Positions 6,002 to 15,415 are shown, numbered from the stretch's first letter. The stretch is DNA of 64,000 nucleotides from Terrisporobacter petrolearius (GCF_020748185.1 NZ_JAHZMO010000001.1:186001-250000); one strand, 5' to 3'. Program-made: numbers and translations. Notes: generated by a model from the letters alone, not told the origin.

Positions 6002-6030
6002 TTGACAGATTGTGAGAAATAAAGTATAAT
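6002..6030 (+). promoter_or_regulatory. Housekeeping-sigma promoter for the ligase/racemase operon
   Basis: TTGACA at 6002-6007 and TATAAT at 6025-6030 are both consensus, with a 17-base spacer. The ligase gene starts 36 bases downstream. No operator-like repeat overlaps it, so expression may be constitutive. Confidence 0.85.
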
Positions 6031-6066
6031 AACCAATGTATTTAAAAAGAATAAGAGGTGGATAAA

Positions 6067-7281
6067 GTGGAGAAGTTTAAAATTCAACCTGTATTGGTTG
6101 GTGGAGATATAAACTGCTATTCTGTAGCTAGAGCTTATCACGAAGCTTATGGAGTAAAGTCCATAGCTTTTGGGAAAATGTTACTTGGAGCAACAAAAGA
6201 CAGTAATATAATAGATTTTAGAGTAGATCCTAATATGGGTAATAAAGAAGAGTTTATAAAAGTTTTACTAAAAACTGCAGATGAACTTGCTGAGCCAAAT
6301 AAAAAACTTATAATTCATGGATGTACTGATGAGTATGCAGAATTAATAATAGATTATAGAGATGTATTATCAGAAAAGTACATAGTACCTTATATAGGTG
6401 CGAAACTTAAAGATAAGCTAATAGAAAAAGAATTATTTTATAATATGTGTGAAGAATATGGGTTAGATTATCCAAAAACATATATATACAATAAGGGTGA
6501 TGAAATAGGTGACTTTGGATTTAATTATCCAGTTATATTAAAAGCCTCTGATAGTATATCATTCTTCCAAAATGCTTTTGAAGGAATGAACAAAGCTTAT
6601 CTTATACAAGATGAAGAAGAATTTAAAAGAGAAATAGCAAAAATATATTCTCATGGTTATGAAAAATCTATGATAGTTCAAGACTTCATACCTGGAGATG
6701 ACTCCCACATGAGAGTTTTAACTTGTTACTCAGATAAAAATGGAAAAGTTAAAATGCAATGTTTAGGACATGTTTTATTAGAAGAACATACTCCAAAAGG
6801 AATTGGAAATCATGCAGCTATAATAACTGAGTATGATGAAGAAGTTATGACTAAATTTAAAAACTTCTTAGAAAGTATAAATTACACAGGATATTCAAAC
6901 TTTGATATAAAATACGATGCTAGGGACAATAAATACAAAGTATTTGAAATAAATTTAAGACAAGGCAGAAGTAATTATTATGTAACATCTTCAGGAAATA
7001 ACATAGCTAAGTTTGTTGTAGAAGACAGAGTTAATAACAAAGAGCTAGACTTAAAAATACAAAAAGAACCTTTCTTCTGGAGATGCATACCAAAAGAAGT
7101 AGTATATAAATATGTAAAGAGTCAAGAATTAGTAAATAAATGCAAAGAATTAGATGCTGTAGGAAAATCAGCTACATCATTTGGATACGAAGCTGACCTA
7201 AAAGGAAACTTCAAAAGGAGATGGTACATCTTCTTATACTATGTAAATCAATTTAGAAAATTCAAAAAATACTGCAAGTAG
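6067..7281 (+). CDS. ATP-grasp carboxylate-amine ligase, D-aspartate ligase type
   Basis: The protein (404 residues) resembles ATP-grasp ligases that activate a carboxylate as acyl phosphate and join it to an amine; the closest group I recall is the D-aspartate ligase that adds the cross-bridge residue in Enterococcus faecium. Visible features are the N-terminal segment PVLVGGDINCYSVARAYHE, the ATP-grasp core from about 115 to 330 (YPVILKASDSISF, a metal-binding-type stretch FEINLRQGRSN) and a basic C-terminus. GTG at 6067 is preferred because GAGGTGG lies 5 bases before it; a GTG at 6058 overlaps that site. It is followed at 13 bases by an Asp/Glu racemase and then by a MurE-like ligase, which favours a cell-wall role. 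The substrate is inferred only. Confidence 0.75.
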   Translation: MEKFKIQPVLVGGDINCYSVARAYHEAYGVKSIAFGKMLLGATKDSNIIDFRVDPNMGNKEEFIKVLLKTADELAEPNKKLIIHGCTDEYAELIIDYRDVLSEKYIVPYIGAKLKDKLIEKELFYNMCEEYGLDYPKTYIYNKGDEIGDFGFNYPVILKASDSISFFQNAFEGMNKAYLIQDEEEFKREIAKIYSHGYEKSMIVQDFIPGDDSHMRVLTCYSDKNGKVKMQCLGHVLLEEHTPKGIGNHAAIITEYDEEVMTKFKNFLESINYTGYSNFDIKYDARDNKYKVFEINLRQGRSNYYVTSSGNNIAKFVVEDRVNNKELDLKIQKEPFFWRCIPKEVVYKYVKSQELVNKCKELDAVGKSATSFGYEADLKGNFKRRWYIFLYYVNQFRKFKKYCK

Positions 7282-7293
7282 ATTGGTGATAAT

Positions 7294-7995
7294 ATGAATA
7301 ATATAACTGTAGGTGTTTTAGGTGGCTTAGGACCTATGGCCTCTGTGTATTTCTATGAAATGGTAGTGAATATGACAGAAGCGAAGACTGACCAAGAACA
7401 TGTTGATATGATAATAACAAATAGAGCAACTACGCCAGATAGAACAGCTTTTATCGTAGGAAACTCTGATGAAGATCCATCAAAGATATTAATAGATGAT
7501 GCAAAAAAATTAGAAAAATATGGTGTAGACTTTATTGTGATAACATGTAATACGGCACATTATTTCTATGAAAAAATAGTTAATGCAGTTAATATACCTT
7601 TAGTAAATATTGTAGAGGAAACGATTAAACATGCCAAAGAGACTAATCATAAAAAACTAGGCATTCTTGCCACTACTGGAAACATTAAAACTTGTTTATA
7701 TCAAAATATGTGTGAAAAGTATGATATGGAATATTTAGTATTAGATGAAAATAAGCAGTCTAGGGTAATGGAAATAATTTACGATAATATAAAAAGTGGA
7801 AAACCAGCTGATATGCATAAGTTCAATTCTATTGTAGACTATTTAAAGGAAAATAATTGTGATGGAGTTATTCTTGGATGCACAGAGCTATCTATATTAA
7901 AAAATGATAATAAATTAAACGGAGATTTTTATATAGATTCCCTGGAAGTCCTTGCTAGAGAAACTATATTAAGAAGCGGAAGAAAACTAAAATAG
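7294..7995 (+). CDS. Aspartate/glutamate racemase family protein
   Basis: The 233-residue protein is a cofactor-independent Asp/Glu racemase-fold enzyme. The two catalytic cysteines are visible, Cys85 in ITCNTAHYF and Cys196 in ILGCTELS, with the N-terminal GGLGPMAS loop. GGLGPMAS and both CNT/GCTE contexts fit aspartate racemase better than MurI glutamate racemase. It sits 13 bases after the ATP-grasp gene, so it probably supplies D-aspartate (or D-glutamate) to that ligase; this is inference. Its stop codon lies within the stem of a terminator-like hairpin. Confidence 0.85.
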
Positions 7996-8019
7996 AGTAG
8001 TGAACCTACTCTATTTTTT
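7992..8019 (+). terminator. Intrinsic terminator or attenuator between racemase and MurE-like gene
   Basis: ATAGAGTAG (7992-8000) pairs perfectly with CTACTCTAT (8006-8014) around a 5-base loop and is followed by six T residues. It begins at the racemase stop codon and ends 22 bases before the next start codon, so readthrough is needed for that gene unless it has its own promoter. Confidence 0.7.
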
Positions 8020-8041
8020 AAAATCAGAAAGGAAGTATATT

Positions 8042-9556
8042 ATGAAATTATTTAAATTAATGGAAGATGTAAGTTTTACATCCAACTTACCTTTAGAAAA
8101 AATTGATGAGATTGAAATAAAAGATATATCATATAACTCTAGGAGTTGTAAAGAAGAATTTATGTTTGTTGCTCTTGTTGGAGAAACTGTAGATGGTCAT
8201 AGATTTGTAAAAAATGCTTATGACAATGGAGCTAGAGTATTTTTACTACAAAAGGGAATGGAATCTAGTAAATATGCTATGGAACTTCCAAATGATACAG
8301 TAAAATTATTTGTGGAAGATACAAGAATAAGTTTATCAAGAATATCACATAACTTTTTTGGACAACCATCTAACTCACTAAAAGTAATTGGTGTTACAGG
8401 AACTAAGGGAAAAACGACTATAACTAATTATATTGCAACTGTTTTAAATGAATCAGGAGTTAATACTGGTGTAATAGGAACAAATGGAACTTTTTTCAAT
8501 GGAACTTATGAAGCTACAGCAAATACAACGCCAGAAAGCTATGAGTTACATAGAATATTTAGAAAAATGCTTGATAATGGTGTAACTTGTGTATCTATGG
8601 AAGTTTCATCTGGAGGAATAATGCAAAACAGAGTGGAAGATGTAGATTTTGATGTTGCCATATTCTCTAATTTATCTCCAGATCACATAGGACCAAAGGA
8701 ACATCCAACATTTGATCATTATTTACAATGTAAAGCAAGATTATTTAAGATGGCTAAACATGGTATTATTAATATAGATGATGATTATGCAAATGATATA
8801 ATAAATGCAGCAACTTGTGAAGTGGAGACTTTTGGAATAGAAAATGATGCGAATTTAACTGCTAACAATATAAGATATTCAAAAGAAATAGACTCGCTAG
8901 GAGTGAGTTTTGACTGTAATACAAAAGAAGAAACATTCCCATGTTTTATATGTTCTCCAGGAACTTTTAGTATTTACAACGCATTGGCAGTTATAGTAGT
9001 TTGTAAATATCTAGATGTGAAAAGAGAGATTATGGTAGATGCCTTAAAAAATGCTAAGGTAAGTGGAAGAGTGGAAGTTTTACCAATACTTCCTTATGCT
9101 ACAGTAATAGTTGACTATGCTCACAATGGTGTTAGTTTAGAAAATATATTACAAACACTTAAAAACTATGATCATGATAGATTAATATGCTTATTTGGTT
9201 CAGTAGGTGGAAGAACTGCAATAAGAAGAAAAGAATTAGGTGACGTTGCTGCTCGTGAGTGTGATTTAGCAATACTTACAGCAGATAATCCGGATTTTGA
9301 AGATCCGATGAATGTTATAAATGATATAGCACAGTCTTTTGAAGGTTCTTCTTGTGAAGTAGTAAAAATAGCAGATAGAGAAGATGCTATAAAATATACT
9401 ATTAGAAATGCTAAAGAAGGAGATATGATAGTATTTGCAGGGAAAGGTCATGAAAAATACCAATTGATAAATGGAGAAAAATTACCTTTTGATGAAATAG
9501 CTATTGCAAAAGATGAAGCAAAAAAAGTAATAGAAGAAAAAGAATTATTAGCTTAA
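8042..9556 (+). CDS. MurE-like UDP-MurNAc-tripeptide ligase family protein
   Basis: This 504-residue Mur ligase has the N-terminal UDP-binding domain, the ATP P-loop VTGTKGKTT (about 118-126), the central domain (SNLSPDHIGPKEHPTF, carbamylated-lysine region FDHYLQCKARLF) and the C-terminal domain (VDYAHNG, FGSVGGRTAIRRKELG, FAGKGHE). MurE adds the third stem-peptide residue. The specificity motif that is DNPR in meso-diaminopimelate enzymes reads DNPD at 415-418, so a different amino acid is plausible. The start at 8042 has AAGGAAG upstream; an earlier ATG at 8000 lies inside the hairpin. It may be a second, specialised MurE acting with the ligase and racemase before it, or the cell's main MurE. 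Confidence 0.8.
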   Translation: MKLFKLMEDVSFTSNLPLEKIDEIEIKDISYNSRSCKEEFMFVALVGETVDGHRFVKNAYDNGARVFLLQKGMESSKYAMELPNDTVKLFVEDTRISLSRISHNFFGQPSNSLKVIGVTGTKGKTTITNYIATVLNESGVNTGVIGTNGTFFNGTYEATANTTPESYELHRIFRKMLDNGVTCVSMEVSSGGIMQNRVEDVDFDVAIFSNLSPDHIGPKEHPTFDHYLQCKARLFKMAKHGIINIDDDYANDIINAATCEVETFGIENDANLTANNIRYSKEIDSLGVSFDCNTKEETFPCFICSPGTFSIYNALAVIVVCKYLDVKREIMVDALKNAKVSGRVEVLPILPYATVIVDYAHNGVSLENILQTLKNYDHDRLICLFGSVGGRTAIRRKELGDVAARECDLAILTADNPDFEDPMNVINDIAQSFEGSSCEVVKIADREDAIKYTIRNAKEGDMIVFAGKGHEKYQLINGEKLPFDEIAIAKDEAKKVIEEKELLA

Positions 9557-9584: not shown

Positions 9585-9616
9585 AGGCATTACATTTATT
9601 ATGTAATGCCTTCTTT
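9585..9616 (+). terminator. Terminator after the MurE-like gene
   Basis: AGGCATTACAT pairs perfectly with ATGTAATGCCT around a 5-base loop, followed by a short, interrupted T tract. The rest of the sequence to 9760 is AT-rich with no recognisable feature. Confidence 0.65.
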
Positions 9617-9760
9617 AAATGGGAATATATTGAAAATTATCAAATTTGTGAATGATTTTTATTAATTATTATTTATATAATAAAATAGGCACAAATATAC
9701 TATAGTGAAATTGATTTTTGAAAATTCTTATGATATCATTAAATTAATTAGAAAACAAAG

Positions 9761-10267: not shown

Positions 10268-13012
10268 TTGCTACTAAAAAAGGTCCTTTATATTAATGGG
10301 GTAAAAAGAACACTACTTGTTAATCCAGAAAGCAGTTTAGCTAATGTACTACGTGAACAACTATTACTTACAGGGTGTAAGATAGGTTGTGGTCAAGGTC
10401 ACTGTGGTACATGTACTATTATTTTAAATAATAAGGCTGTTCGTTCTTGTATAGTTAAAATGAAAAAAATTGAGGATGAATCAGTTATACAAACAATTGA
10501 AGGATTATCAGAAGGTGAAGAGTTACATCCACTACAAGTTGCATGGATGGGACACGGATGTGCACAATGTGGTTTCTGTAGCCCTGGATTTATTATGTCA
10601 GCGAAGGTTTTATTAGAAGAAAACCCTTCTCCAACAAGAGAAGAAGTAAGAGAATGGTTCCAAAAACATAAAAATTTATGTCGTTGTACAGGATATAAAC
10701 CTTTAGTAGATGCTGTCATTGATGCAGCTGCAGTACTAAGAGGTGAAAAGAAAGTAGAAGATTTAGTTTTCGAACCTGTAGGAAATGAAATATTAGGAAC
10801 TAAGTATATTAGACCTTCTGCAAAAGCTAAAGTAACTGGTACTTGGGATTTCGGTGCGGATATGAACTTACAAATGCCAGATGGAACTTTAAGATTAGCT
10901 TTAGTTCAAGCTGAGGTTTCTCATGCAAATATTAAGGGAATAGACACTTCTGAAGCAGAAAAAATGCCAGGTGTTTATAAAGTAATAACTGCTAAAGATG
11001 TTAAAGGTAACAATAAGATAAACGGATTAGTATTCTTCCCAAGTGCTAATAAGGGAGATGGATGGGATAGACCAATTCTTTGTGATGAAAAAGTATTCCA
11101 ATATGGTGACGCTATTGCATTAGTAGCTGCTGATACTGAAGAGCAAGCTAAAGCTGCTGCTAAAAAAGTAAAAATAGATTTAGAAGTGCTTCCAGCATAT
11201 ATGAGTGCACCAGAAGCTATGGCTGAAGATGCTATAGAAATACATCCTGGAATTCCTAACGTTTATTTTAAAACTGATTGTAAAAAGGGTGAAGAAACAG
11301 CTCCATTAATGGAAAAACTTCCCAATGTAGTTGAAGTTGAATCTTATTGTAGCCGTCAACCGCATTTACCTCTTGAACCAGACTGTGGTCAAGCGTACCA
11401 AGATGAAGATGGTAACTTAATTATAAACTCTAAGAGTATAGGAATCCACTTACATCATGCAATGATTTGTACAGGTATAGGTATTGATCCAGAAAAATGC
11501 TTCTTAGTACAAAATCCAACTGGAGGAACTTTCGGATATAAATTCTCTCCAACTATGGAATCTATGTTAGGTGTTGCTTGTTTAGCTACTGGAAGACCAG
11601 TAACATTAAACTATACTCAATATCAAAATATAACTTACACTGGAAAGAGGTCTCCTGCATTCATGAAAATAAAACTTGGTGCAGATGAAAATGGTAAAAT
11701 ACTTGCTCTTGAAGGTGAAAACTATATAGATCATGGCCCATATTCAGAATTCGGTGACTTATTAACTATGCGTCTTACTCAATTCGTAGGTGCTGGTTAT
11801 GGAATACCAAATATAAGAAACACTTCTTATACTGTATGTACTAACCATGCTTGGGGTAGTGCATTTAGAGGATATGGTGCTCCACAAAGTTTTATGGGAA
11901 CTGATACTGCTATAGATGTATTAGCAGACCAAATGGGAATGGATCCATTTGAATTAAGATATATAAATGCATATAGAGAAGGAGATACTACTCCAACTGG
12001 TCAAACTCCAGAAGTATACTCTATAGTACCTATGATGGATAAATTAAGACCATTATATGAAGAAGCTAAAGTAAGAGTTAAAGAAAATTCTACTGATAAA
12101 GTTAAACGTGGTGTAGGTATATCTATAGGTGTTTATGGATGTGGACTTGATGGTGCGGATTCATCTGAAGCTTATGCTGAAATAACTCCAAAAGGTGTAA
12201 CTATTTACAACTCTTGGGAAGATCATGGTCAAGGTGCAGATATAGGAACATTAACTATGGCTCATGCAACTTTAAAAGAAGCTGGATATAAACCAGAAGA
12301 TATTAAATTAGTAATGTGTGATATGCGTCAAACTCCAAACAGTGGTCCTGCTGGTGGAAGTAGATCTAATGTTGTTACAGGCAATGCTACTAGAATAGCA
12401 GCTGAAAACTTGTTAAAAGCACTAGATAAAGGCGATGGAACTTATCGTTCTTACGATGAGATGGTAGCTGAAGGTTTACCAACTAAATATGTAGGTAAAT
12501 GGGTTGCGTCTATGTGTTCTGATTGTCAAATAGAAAATGGTCAAGGAGCACCATTTAGTAACTATATGTACGTTGTTAATATGCCAGAAGTTGCTGTTGA
12601 TATGGAAACAGGCAAAACAAAAGTTGAAAAATTCACTTGTATAGTTGACTGTGGTAAGATAATTAACAAACTTGTTGTTGATGGTCAAGTTTATGGAGCA
12701 TTAGCACAAGGTATAGGTCTTGCATTAACTGAAGACTTTGAAGATTTAGAAAAGCATACTACGTTAGTTAAATGTGGTATACCACAAATAAAAGATATAC
12801 CAGATGATTTAGAAATACATTATGAAGAAGCTGAAAGACCAGATGGACCTTATGGGGCTTCTGGAGTAGGTGAAGGTCCATTAGCTGCACCTCACCCTGC
12901 TATACTAAATGCTATATTTAATGCTACTGGAGCTAGAGTAACTAAAGTACCTGCAACTCCAGAAGTAGTTAAAGCTGCACTAGATGAATTAGCAAGTGGA
13001 GCAAATGCTTAA
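10268..13012 (+). CDS. mop: Single-subunit molybdenum aldehyde oxidoreductase (MOP type)
   Basis: The 914-residue xanthine-oxidase-family enzyme joins two [2Fe-2S] domains to the molybdopterin domains and lacks the FAD domain, like Desulfovibrio gigas aldehyde oxidoreductase (907 residues). The plant-type cluster ligands are Cys41, 46, 49 and 61; the second cluster uses Cys100, 103, 137 and 139; the active-site glutamate in GVGEGPLAAPHP is residue 869. From memory the second-cluster and Glu869 numbers are identical to those of MOP. The cofactor loops QNPTGGTFG and AFRGYGAPQS are present. It begins with TTG behind AAAAGGGGG. A hydroxylase acting on another aldehyde, purine or heterocycle is possible, since the accessory operon downstream is unusually large. 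Electrons must leave to a separate acceptor, perhaps the next gene product. Confidence 0.9.
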   Translation: MLLKKVLYINGVKRTLLVNPESSLANVLREQLLLTGCKIGCGQGHCGTCTIILNNKAVRSCIVKMKKIEDESVIQTIEGLSEGEELHPLQVAWMGHGCAQCGFCSPGFIMSAKVLLEENPSPTREEVREWFQKHKNLCRCTGYKPLVDAVIDAAAVLRGEKKVEDLVFEPVGNEILGTKYIRPSAKAKVTGTWDFGADMNLQMPDGTLRLALVQAEVSHANIKGIDTSEAEKMPGVYKVITAKDVKGNNKINGLVFFPSANKGDGWDRPILCDEKVFQYGDAIALVAADTEEQAKAAAKKVKIDLEVLPAYMSAPEAMAEDAIEIHPGIPNVYFKTDCKKGEETAPLMEKLPNVVEVESYCSRQPHLPLEPDCGQAYQDEDGNLIINSKSIGIHLHHAMICTGIGIDPEKCFLVQNPTGGTFGYKFSPTMESMLGVACLATGRPVTLNYTQYQNITYTGKRSPAFMKIKLGADENGKILALEGENYIDHGPYSEFGDLLTMRLTQFVGAGYGIPNIRNTSYTVCTNHAWGSAFRGYGAPQSFMGTDTAIDVLADQMGMDPFELRYINAYREGDTTPTGQTPEVYSIVPMMDKLRPLYEEAKVRVKENSTDKVKRGVGISIGVYGCGLDGADSSEAYAEITPKGVTIYNSWEDHGQGADIGTLTMAHATLKEAGYKPEDIKLVMCDMRQTPNSGPAGGSRSNVVTGNATRIAAENLLKALDKGDGTYRSYDEMVAEGLPTKYVGKWVASMCSDCQIENGQGAPFSNYMYVVNMPEVAVDMETGKTKVEKFTCIVDCGKIINKLVVDGQVYGALAQGIGLALTEDFEDLEKHTTLVKCGIPQIKDIPDDLEIHYEEAERPDGPYGASGVGEGPLAAPHPAILNAIFNATGARVTKVPATPEVVKAALDELASGANA

Positions 13013-13051
13013 ATAAGAAGTAAATATAAAAGAGTAATTTTATGATTGTTG

Positions 13052-13117
13052 CTCTTGTTTAGTCAAATAAAAGGGCTTAACCTTAAGTATATTCTACAAG
13101 AGTTTAAGCCTTTTTTT
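13052..13117 (+). terminator. Terminator-like structure with possible pseudoknot between mop and the accessory operon
   Basis: AAAGGGCTTAA near 13071 can pair with TTTAAGCCTTT (13103-13113, one bulged G), followed by a T run to 13117. A competing pairing, CTCTTGT at 13052-13058 with ACAAGAG at 13096-13102, encloses the left arm of the terminator. The two could form a pseudoknot or act as alternative folds. Confidence 0.6.
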
Positions 13118-13189
13118 CATATAAGGAATCTCAAGGAAGCAAATTTTTTAATACAAATAATAGATATATTTTTTTAAGGAGAATAGACT

Positions 13190-15415
13190 ATGGATAATCT
13201 TAGTCAAGATAAATTAAAAGAGTTAGAAAGCAAATGTATTCAAGAAGAAGATCCTTGGTGTAATGCCATGTGCCCAATTCATATAGATGTAAGACAGCTA
13301 TGTAAACTAGTTGCCCAAGGTAATTTTACTGAAGGTAGAAAAATTTATGAAAAAAAAGTTGTTTTTCCAAACATAATAAGCAGAGTTTGTGAAGCAAAAT
13401 GCAAAAGTCAATGTAAAAGAAAAGAATTAGGAAATTCCATAAATATCAGACAGCTTGAATTAGCTTGCATGAATTATGGGAAAGAAGTAAAGGCCAGGGT
13501 TTTATTAAAACCTAAAAAGAAAGAGAAAGTAATAATATTTGGTACTAGTTTAAGTGGATTAAGCTGTGCAGTAGAATTAAAAAATAAGGGTTATTTTGTT
13601 GATTTACATGAAAGTGAAGAAATTTTAGGAAAAAATATATATGAAAATTATAAAGATGTATTAGAAGAAATTCTTATAAAAAATGATTTACAAAAAGTTG
13701 AAGATTCAGGAACGAAGATTTATATTAATTCCTATTTTGAAAAAGAAAAATTAAATGAATATAAAGAAGAATATGATGCATTAGTATTTGATGGAAACAT
13801 TTATAAAGAATACTTATCTTACAATATGATAACTTTACAGCATGAAAATGATAAAGTTTTTTACAGTCCAATGAATGTTTCAGCTGTGGAGTGTATAAGT
13901 TTAGGTAAAAGGCTTTCAACATCTATAGATAGATATTTACAACATAGTAGCATGACTCAAGGAAGAGAAAAAGAAGGAGTTTTTCAAACAAAATTATATA
14001 CAAATTTAGAAGATGTAGATATTGAATGTGAAACAATTCCTAGTAACAAAAAGTTTTATACAGAGGAGGAAGCTATAAAAGAAGGACAAAGATGTATTGA
14101 CTGTAACTGCCTTGAATGTGTAAAAGGCTGTGAATTTTTAAAACACTATAATTCTTATCCTAAAAAAATGGCAAGAGAAGTTTATAATAACTTATCCATT
14201 GCTTTAGGTAACAGAACTTCAAATAAAATGATAAATTCATGTAGCCTTTGTGGCCAATGTAAAGCTATTTGTCCAGGAGGATTAGATTTAGGAGAAGTTT
14301 GTGAATATGCAAGAAATCAAATGGTAAAAACAAATAAAATGCCTCCATCAGCTTTCGAATTTGCCATGGAAGATATGGAATTTAGCAATAGCGAAGAGTT
14401 TTTTACGGTTATAGAGAAAGATAATCTAAATTATGTGTTTTTTCCTGGGTGCCAATTATGTGCATCTGAACCTGATCTAGTAAAAGTAATTTATAATGAT
14501 TTGAACGATAAATTAAAAAATGAAGTTGGATTAATTCTAGGTTGCTGTGGAGTAATAGGAAAATGGTCTGGAGAGGAAGACAGGTTTTATGAAGAAATAA
14601 AATTAATAAAAAATACATTGGAGAAAGTTAATAATACTATTCTTATTACAGCTTGTCCTACATGTTATAAAATTTTCAGTTCGCATCTAGAAAGTGTAAA
14701 AGTTAAAATGATTTATGATTATATTGATGATAAACAACTAAAATTTATTGGAAATAATAATGATATATATATAGATGATCCATGCACTGTTCGATATGAT
14801 GACAAATTACAAAGTCAAGTAAGAGAAATAGCAAAAAAACTTGGATTTAATCTAATAGAGTTGGATTATAGCAGAGAAATAACTACTTGTTGTGGATATG
14901 GTGGACTTACTTGTTTTTCTAACAAGGAATTAAAGGAAAATATAGTTTTATCAAGAATTAAAGAAAATAAACTAAATTATTTAACTTATTGTATAAATTG
15001 TAGAGATAGTTTTTTAAGCCAAAATAAAGAAGCAAAACATATTTTACAATTTATATATAATTTTGATGGTAAAAACAAAAAACCTAATATTTCTGAAAGA
15101 AGATACAACAGAGTCCAATTAAAATTAGATTTAACACAGGAAAAAGATAAGACCAATAATTACAAAATCAATTTAATTATGAGTGATGATTTGAAAGAAA
15201 AACTAGAGGATAGAATGATTTTATATAAAGATATTGAAGACACAATAAAAAATGCTCAAGAAACTAATGAAAAATTCATAAACAAATCAAACAATCATAA
15301 TTTGGCTTATTATAGAATAAAAAACGTTACATTTTGGGTTGAGTACACTATTGAAGGAGGAAAATATTTAGTTTATAACGCATATAGTCATAGAATGAAG
15401 ATAGAGGTGAATTAA
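13190..15415 (+). CDS. Fe-S/CCG-domain redox protein with reduced nucleotide-binding module (DVU_1558-like)
   Basis: The 741-residue protein is multidomain. Residues 1-105 resemble the cysteine-rich N-terminus of glutamate-synthase small subunits. A Rossmann-like strand follows (IFGTSLSGLSCAVEL, about 115-129). After an unusually short interval comes the usual closing segment ISLGKRLSTSIDRYL. Two [4Fe-4S] motifs follow (CIDCNCLECVKGC near 302; CSLCGQCKAICPGG near 351), then two CCG domains of HdrB/GlpC type (FPGCQLC with GCCGVIGKW, then DPCTVRYDD with TCCGYGG near 566) and an unassigned C-terminal 100 residues. It heads the accessory operon after mop. By inference it takes or delivers electrons for the oxidoreductase or its maturation. 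The nucleotide-binding part looks too short for full FAD and NAD sites. Confidence 0.8.
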   Translation: MDNLSQDKLKELESKCIQEEDPWCNAMCPIHIDVRQLCKLVAQGNFTEGRKIYEKKVVFPNIISRVCEAKCKSQCKRKELGNSINIRQLELACMNYGKEVKARVLLKPKKKEKVIIFGTSLSGLSCAVELKNKGYFVDLHESEEILGKNIYENYKDVLEEILIKNDLQKVEDSGTKIYINSYFEKEKLNEYKEEYDALVFDGNIYKEYLSYNMITLQHENDKVFYSPMNVSAVECISLGKRLSTSIDRYLQHSSMTQGREKEGVFQTKLYTNLEDVDIECETIPSNKKFYTEEEAIKEGQRCIDCNCLECVKGCEFLKHYNSYPKKMAREVYNNLSIALGNRTSNKMINSCSLCGQCKAICPGGLDLGEVCEYARNQMVKTNKMPPSAFEFAMEDMEFSNSEEFFTVIEKDNLNYVFFPGCQLCASEPDLVKVIYNDLNDKLKNEVGLILGCCGVIGKWSGEEDRFYEEIKLIKNTLEKVNNTILITACPTCYKIFSSHLESVKVKMIYDYIDDKQLKFIGNNNDIYIDDPCTVRYDDKLQSQVREIAKKLGFNLIELDYSREITTCCGYGGLTCFSNKELKENIVLSRIKENKLNYLTYCINCRDSFLSQNKEAKHILQFIYNFDGKNKKPNISERRYNRVQLKLDLTQEKDKTNNYKINLIMSDDLKEKLEDRMILYKDIEDTIKNAQETNEKFINKSNNHNLAYYRIKNVTFWVEYTIEGGKYLVYNAYSHRMKIEVN

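Follow-up and report, generated by a model that had tools for sequence, protein, structure and literature searches.

The window analysed here, a stretch of 64,000 nucleotides from Terrisporobacter petrolearius, carries three adjoining genes for an ATP-grasp ligase, an amino-acid racemase and a MurE-type ligase. We put the probability at about two in three that this trio is a pathway for a vegetative wall with Lys (less likely Orn) and D-Asp, present beside a diaminopimelate (DAP) branch that is kept mainly for the spore cortex. According to this proposal, the racemase would convert L-Asp to D-Asp, while the MurE, which has a DNPD motif, would add L-Lys (less likely L-Orn) to UDP-MurNAc-L-Ala-D-Glu. 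The ATP-grasp enzyme would couple the beta-carboxyl group of D-Asp to the side-chain amine of Lys or Orn, and the product would be an L-Lys-D-Asp (A4alpha-like) cross-bridge. In a spore-former, the trio would serve the vegetative wall, and a DNPR-type MurE with DapF would supply the meso-DAP precursor, mainly for the cortex.

Organization and control of the gene set

Re-reading of starts and stops showed that the three genes are intact and that the preliminary description had placed them correctly at 6067-9556, all in one direction behind a consensus promoter (Table 1). They are flanked by a chemotaxis operon on one side and an unrelated reverse-strand gene on the other, in a host assembly of 4.05 Mb in 268 contigs. 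A ligase copy from the same genus, in T. mayombei, is 98% identical. The racemase gene starts 12 bp downstream of the ligase gene, a pairing kept in most loci, and the order ligase-racemase-MurE was found again in unrelated Clostridia and Bacilli at 40-50% identity. The grouping is therefore not due to chance; the three genes form a genuine set that is conserved and makes functional sense. Elsewhere in the window, positions 10268-15415 encode a molybdopterin-dependent aldehyde oxidoreductase (NF045668) and, after it, a pyridine nucleotide-disulfide oxidoreductase/dicluster-binding protein (NF045663).

Table 1. Features of the trio locus, in window coordinates.
Feature	Position	Strand	Basis or remarks
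Sigma-A promoter, TTGACA-N17-TATAAT	6002..6030	+	12/12 match; upstream of trio
Predicted D-aspartate ligase (AslA/Aslfm type), ATP-grasp carboxylate-amine ligase, 404 aa	6067..7281	+	Homology, predicted fold; GTG start 6067, stop 7281, RBS AGAGGTGG at 6054-6061
Predicted aspartate racemase (RacD type)	7294..7995	+	TIGR00035, PDB match, motifs; catalytic C85 and C196
Intrinsic-terminator-like hairpin, AAAATAGAGTAG-TGAAC-CTACTCTATTTTTT	7989..8019	+	Between racemase and MurE
MurE-type ligase, DNPD clade, predicted L-Lys (or L-Orn) adding, 504 aa	8042..9556	+	ATG 8042
Terminator-like hairpin, AGGCATTACAT-TTATT-ATGTAATGCCT, then TTCTTT	9585..9617	+	3' of MurE gene

The sigma-A promoter is conserved at 12/12 positions in 18 of the 19 trio-bearing spore-formers of the Peptostreptococcaceae and at 11/12 in the remaining one, with a diverging spacer, and is absent in Peptostreptococcus. 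No riboswitch or other Rfam element was detected near the trio at E values up to 1. A hairpin separates the racemase stop from the start of the MurE gene, which means that transcription may not run through all three genes without interruption. The scan flagged this hairpin on the minus strand, but the stem is also followed by a run of T on the plus strand. It is the same in six genera (g1, g5 and g18-g21), occurs as a variant in g17 and is absent in g6 and g14. Inspection of the intergenic sequences by eye revealed that in g5 and g18-g21 it is followed by a conserved extended -10 element, TGnTATACT, before the MurE gene. With these two elements between them, the ligase-racemase pair and the MurE are probably expressed at different levels, in growing cells in either case. 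The gap measures only 46 bases in Terrisporobacter, so that expression of its MurE would need read-through or a promoter inside the racemase gene. The upstream sigma-A promoter and the extended -10 element of five genera point to vegetative expression of the trio.

Upstream of the canonical, DNPR-type MurE genes, a search for sporulation sigma sites returned a few AT-rich look-alikes, which were rejected. Trio-bearing genomes showed no significant weakening of the sigma-A promoter score of the canonical MurE (p 0.11).

Predicted functions of the three enzymes

The ATP-grasp protein had no Pfam match, and its NCBIfam matches were weak and confined to carbamoyl-phosphate-synthase-like and D-Ala ligase models. 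A search of plasmid-record proteins was more informative: carboxylate-amine ligases from Latilactobacillus curvatus and Limosilactobacillus fermentum share 39% identity with the protein over 94-98% of the length, and a hypothetical protein of L. crispatus shares 43.5% over nearly the full length. The L. curvatus gene directly follows an amino-acid racemase gene, and that of L. crispatus follows an asparagine synthase gene (asnB); an AsnH-like, asparagine-synthase-like gene also adjoins the ligase in nine other loci. The AlphaFold model (pLDDT 91) has an ATP-grasp fold, and Foldseek placed ATP-grasp enzymes at the top of the PDB matches, the best being the L-amino-acid ligase 3vot (E 1e-15).

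AslA is an ATP-grasp enzyme that adds D-Asp to Lys, is encoded with racD in one operon in L. lactis, and provides the D-Asp that is afterwards amidated by AsnH; the stem of most lactobacilli is of the Lys-D-Asp kind, and that of L. fermentum contains Orn (PMC4155827). The Lys-D-Asp reading is suggested by these ligase homologs, since they come from the lactobacillar group with described D-Asp bridges (PMC4155827). The earlier assignment of the window enzyme to the D-aspartate ligase type, specifically AslA/Aslfm, is thus well supported as a prediction by lactobacillar homologs at 39-43% identity over at least 94% of the length and by the predicted fold.

The racemase scored 225.6 bits with TIGR00035, and its best PDB match was the Pyrococcus aspartate racemase 1jfl (7e-49). 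Both catalytic cysteines of the Asp/Glu racemase proposed initially are in place, C85 in TCNTAH and C196 in GCTE, and the CNTAH and GCTE motifs occur in all 25 racemases of the family that were checked. The NCBIfam model for the cysteate racemase CuyB also accepts the protein (208.6, cut-off 190). This name is probably an over-reach of the model and wrong, because the racemase of Peptostreptococcus russellii scores the same and the ligase-adjoining racemase of L. curvatus reaches 185. Genomic context favours Asp as the substrate.

The MurE-type ligase scored 416 bits with TIGR01085 and retains the three Mur ligase domains. Its residues 415-418 read DNPD, as had been noticed at the outset; the DNPR motif that marks meso-DAP-adding enzymes is absent. 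An alignment showed DNPD in 30/30 trio-type MurEs, two of them from outside the Peptostreptococcaceae, against DNPR in 45/45 canonical MurEs. In a maximum-likelihood tree, the DNPD group is a separate clade (support 100/100) that branches on the Lys-type side, away from the canonical DAP MurEs, so the window MurE did not arise by recent copying of the organism's own DAP enzyme, with which it shares about 34% identity. However, the Lys-type side also includes a few MurEs with DNPR from other Firmicutes, and tree position alone does not fix specificity. The motif residue is likewise suggestive rather than proof, since the MurE of T. maritima adds Lys and yet has DDPR.

Matches to enzymes in the PDB separate the two MurEs of the host. 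The best sequence match of the window MurE is the L-lysine ligase of S. aureus, 4c12 (246.6 bits), followed by a DAP enzyme (212), and the best match of the P. russellii MurE is also 4c12. The DNPR MurE of the host is closer to the enzymes of T. maritima and the E. coli type than to the S. aureus Lys ligase. The trio MurE most likely adds L-Lys, less likely L-Orn, as far as can be predicted from sequence.

NCBIfam names the trio MurE differently. Its DAP-ligase equivalog model NF001126 accepts the protein at 448.8, with a cut-off of 373, and the KGHE motif is also one that DAP enzymes have. If the enzyme were a second DAP ligase, D-Asp would go onto meso-DAP, and several other genomes do pair a D-Asp ligase with a DNPR MurE only. 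We nevertheless consider this highly improbable. The only MurE of P. russellii (L013:10963-12453) is likewise accepted by NF001126 (459.9), although that genome contains neither DapF nor Ddh, and Asp replaces the arginine of DNPR in every member of the clade. The DAP-ligase name of the DNPD MurEs of Terrisporobacter and Peptostreptococcus is therefore likely a systematic misannotation.

Distribution of the two MurE types and of the DAP branch

The preliminary description had called for a test for a second murE elsewhere in the genome. The rest of the genome encodes an ordinary DNPR-type MurE (C55:193-1581) as well as DapF, which means that the trio adds a second pathway and is not the only one. 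The Lys/Orn and D-Asp reading of the preliminary description is well supported, as a prediction, by homology and comparative genomics; it points the right way but is incomplete, as it did not foresee the coexisting DAP branch. The trio is probably best read as one of two paired peptidoglycan recipes used by different cell types. In the trio-bearing Terrisporobacter genomes (L032, L147-L149), the canonical murE is preceded by a small gene that resembles a DtxR-family regulator, and in g2, g22 and g23 a murF-like gene comes after it.

Among 71 Peptostreptococcaceae genomes, 28 carry the D-Asp ligase, representing 9 of 23 genera. All 19 carriers with SpoIVA, used as a marker of sporulation (8 genera), encode both MurEs and DapF, by which alone DAP synthesis was judged in these two-recipe genomes; the canonical MurE of one of them (G019) is split over two contigs and was counted as present. 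The other nine carriers belong to a single genus, Peptostreptococcus; the trio MurE is their sole MurE, and both DapF and SpoIVA are missing. Ddh is absent from eight of them and present in one. In the 43 genomes that lack the ligase, DapF was always present together with one or more MurE matches, and the MurE sequences that were read are canonical. The DAP branch persists even in the eight members of this group that have no SpoIVA, one of them an incomplete genome; DAP is thus not removed by the loss of sporulation alone. On the simplest reading of this pattern, the trio can suffice for the entire wall of vegetative cells, and DAP is retained where spores are made.

The Peptostreptococcus genomes also bear on whether the trio serves the bulk wall at all. 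With a standard DAP MurE and DapF in the genome, and with cyanophycin-type enzymes among the relatives of Mur ligases, the MurE-like enzyme and the D-Asp ligase might instead produce a modified precursor in minor amounts or a polymer of amino acids. This is improbable: the only MurE found in Peptostreptococcus is of the trio type and must build the bulk wall there, the MurE signatures outside the motif are intact along with all three domains, and the genes listed beside the trio include no transporter, NRPS or exporter.

On the other hand, both MurEs could be active during growth, giving a mixed vegetative wall with DAP and Lys-D-Asp stems, perhaps in a condition-dependent ratio. The presence of both enzymes in 19 spore-formers agrees with such a wall, as does the fact that a sporulation promoter of the canonical MurE could not be shown. 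We regard it as unlikely, since it leaves unexplained why DAP was lost in trio-bearing non-spore-formers and retained both in spore-formers and in non-spore-formers lacking the trio. A literature search gave no usable wall analysis for Terrisporobacter, for the wall type of Peptostreptococcus or for the cortex of L. sphaericus.

The comparison was extended with an even draw of 398 genomes from the phylum, which yielded 11 further ligase carriers and, with the earlier loci, 37 genomes outside the family. Among the genomes in which the ligase is accompanied by a MurE of Lys or DNPD type, 12 of 13 with SpoIVA and two of six without it also have a DAP MurE, as classified by hand from motifs, with unclear MurE types left out and with metagenome-assembled genomes (MAGs) that may miss genes. 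Pooled with the family, the figures become 31/32 and 2/15 (Fisher p 1e-8), and counting by lineage gives 20/21 and 2/7 (p 0.0012). The exceptions are a spore-former MAG (G480) in which a DAP MurE was not seen and two MAGs that are negative for SpoIVA but retain a DAP MurE. Spore-formers without DapF (G155, G431, G479, G480 and G482) have Ddh instead. In one genome in which SpoIVA was undetected (G478, ligase locus L010), the DNPR MurE (L192) contains an in-frame TGA, possibly a sign of ongoing decay of the DAP branch or else a sequencing error.

The MurE beside the ligase in these wider loci is often of the KGNETRQ kind, which we take to be the Lys kind of Lactobacillales; it scores high with the NCBIfam L-lysine MurE model, below the cut-off. 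This lends independent support to the pairing of Lys and D-Asp. Three loci (L007, L009 and L019) hold a Lys-type and a DNPR-type MurE close together within the D-Asp ligase locus, where both recipes may be genetically linked.

The D-Asp ligase by itself was considered as a marker of Lys walls and rejected, as about ten carriers, several of them with a racemase and an amidotransferase, have only a DNPR MurE. These genomes show that the ligase can serve another acceptor, perhaps DAP. Six such genomes (G487-G490, G492 and G493) have adjacent genes for the ligase, a racemase and an AsnH-like amidotransferase (L021-L024, L026 and L028); here D-Asp or D-Asn is possibly added to meso-DAP.

A broader reading, which we hold tentatively and with doubt slightly outweighing belief, is that cell-type-specific wall chemistry is widespread in anaerobic spore-formers. 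Lineages that gain the Lys-D-Asp recipe would keep DAP until sporulation is lost, and DAP would be a fixed requirement of the cortex. If so, Terrisporobacter, Romboutsia and several other genera would be unrecognized examples, hidden by the DAP-ligase annotation of their second MurE. The prediction of a set of Peptostreptococcaceae spore-formers with two peptidoglycan recipes per genome bears on immune sensing, on endolysin and drug targeting and on chemotaxonomy; NOD1 is triggered by DAP and not by Lys. Why the spore cortex uses DAP is an old question that now becomes accessible to a gene-removal test in a culturable genus. Furthermore, the analysis flags annotation models that likely give wrong names to the trio MurE and racemase.

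Relation to known wall pathways

A close parallel to the trio is the Lys-D-Asp pathway of lactic acid bacteria, which has a D-Asp ligase of the same family and an adjoining Asp racemase (PMC4155827). Relatives of the trio also share with it an AsnH-like amidotransferase gene beside the ligase. In contrast to that pathway, the trio MurE belongs to a separate DNPD clade and is not of the KGNETRQ kind, and a DAP branch coexists. The S. aureus L-lysine MurE (4c12) combines DNPA with KGRE, whereas the trio clade combines DNPD with KGHE. Canonical clostridial meso-DAP MurEs are members of the same Mur ligase family, and a UDP-MurNAc dipeptide substrate is expected for both, but unlike the trio MurE they carry DNPR and form their own clade (100/100).

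Work by Tipper and Linnett in the 1970s reportedly established that Lysinibacillus (Bacillus) sphaericus has a Lys-D-Asp vegetative wall and a meso-DAP spore cortex. From this precedent and from the co-retention of both MurEs, we infer the division of the two recipes between cell types. Like L. sphaericus, Terrisporobacter is a spore-former with two diamino-acid ligases and a predicted use of D-Asp, and a similar split would be expected. It differs in belonging to the Clostridia and in having a co-located trio with a DNPD MurE, and its split is predicted from genes.
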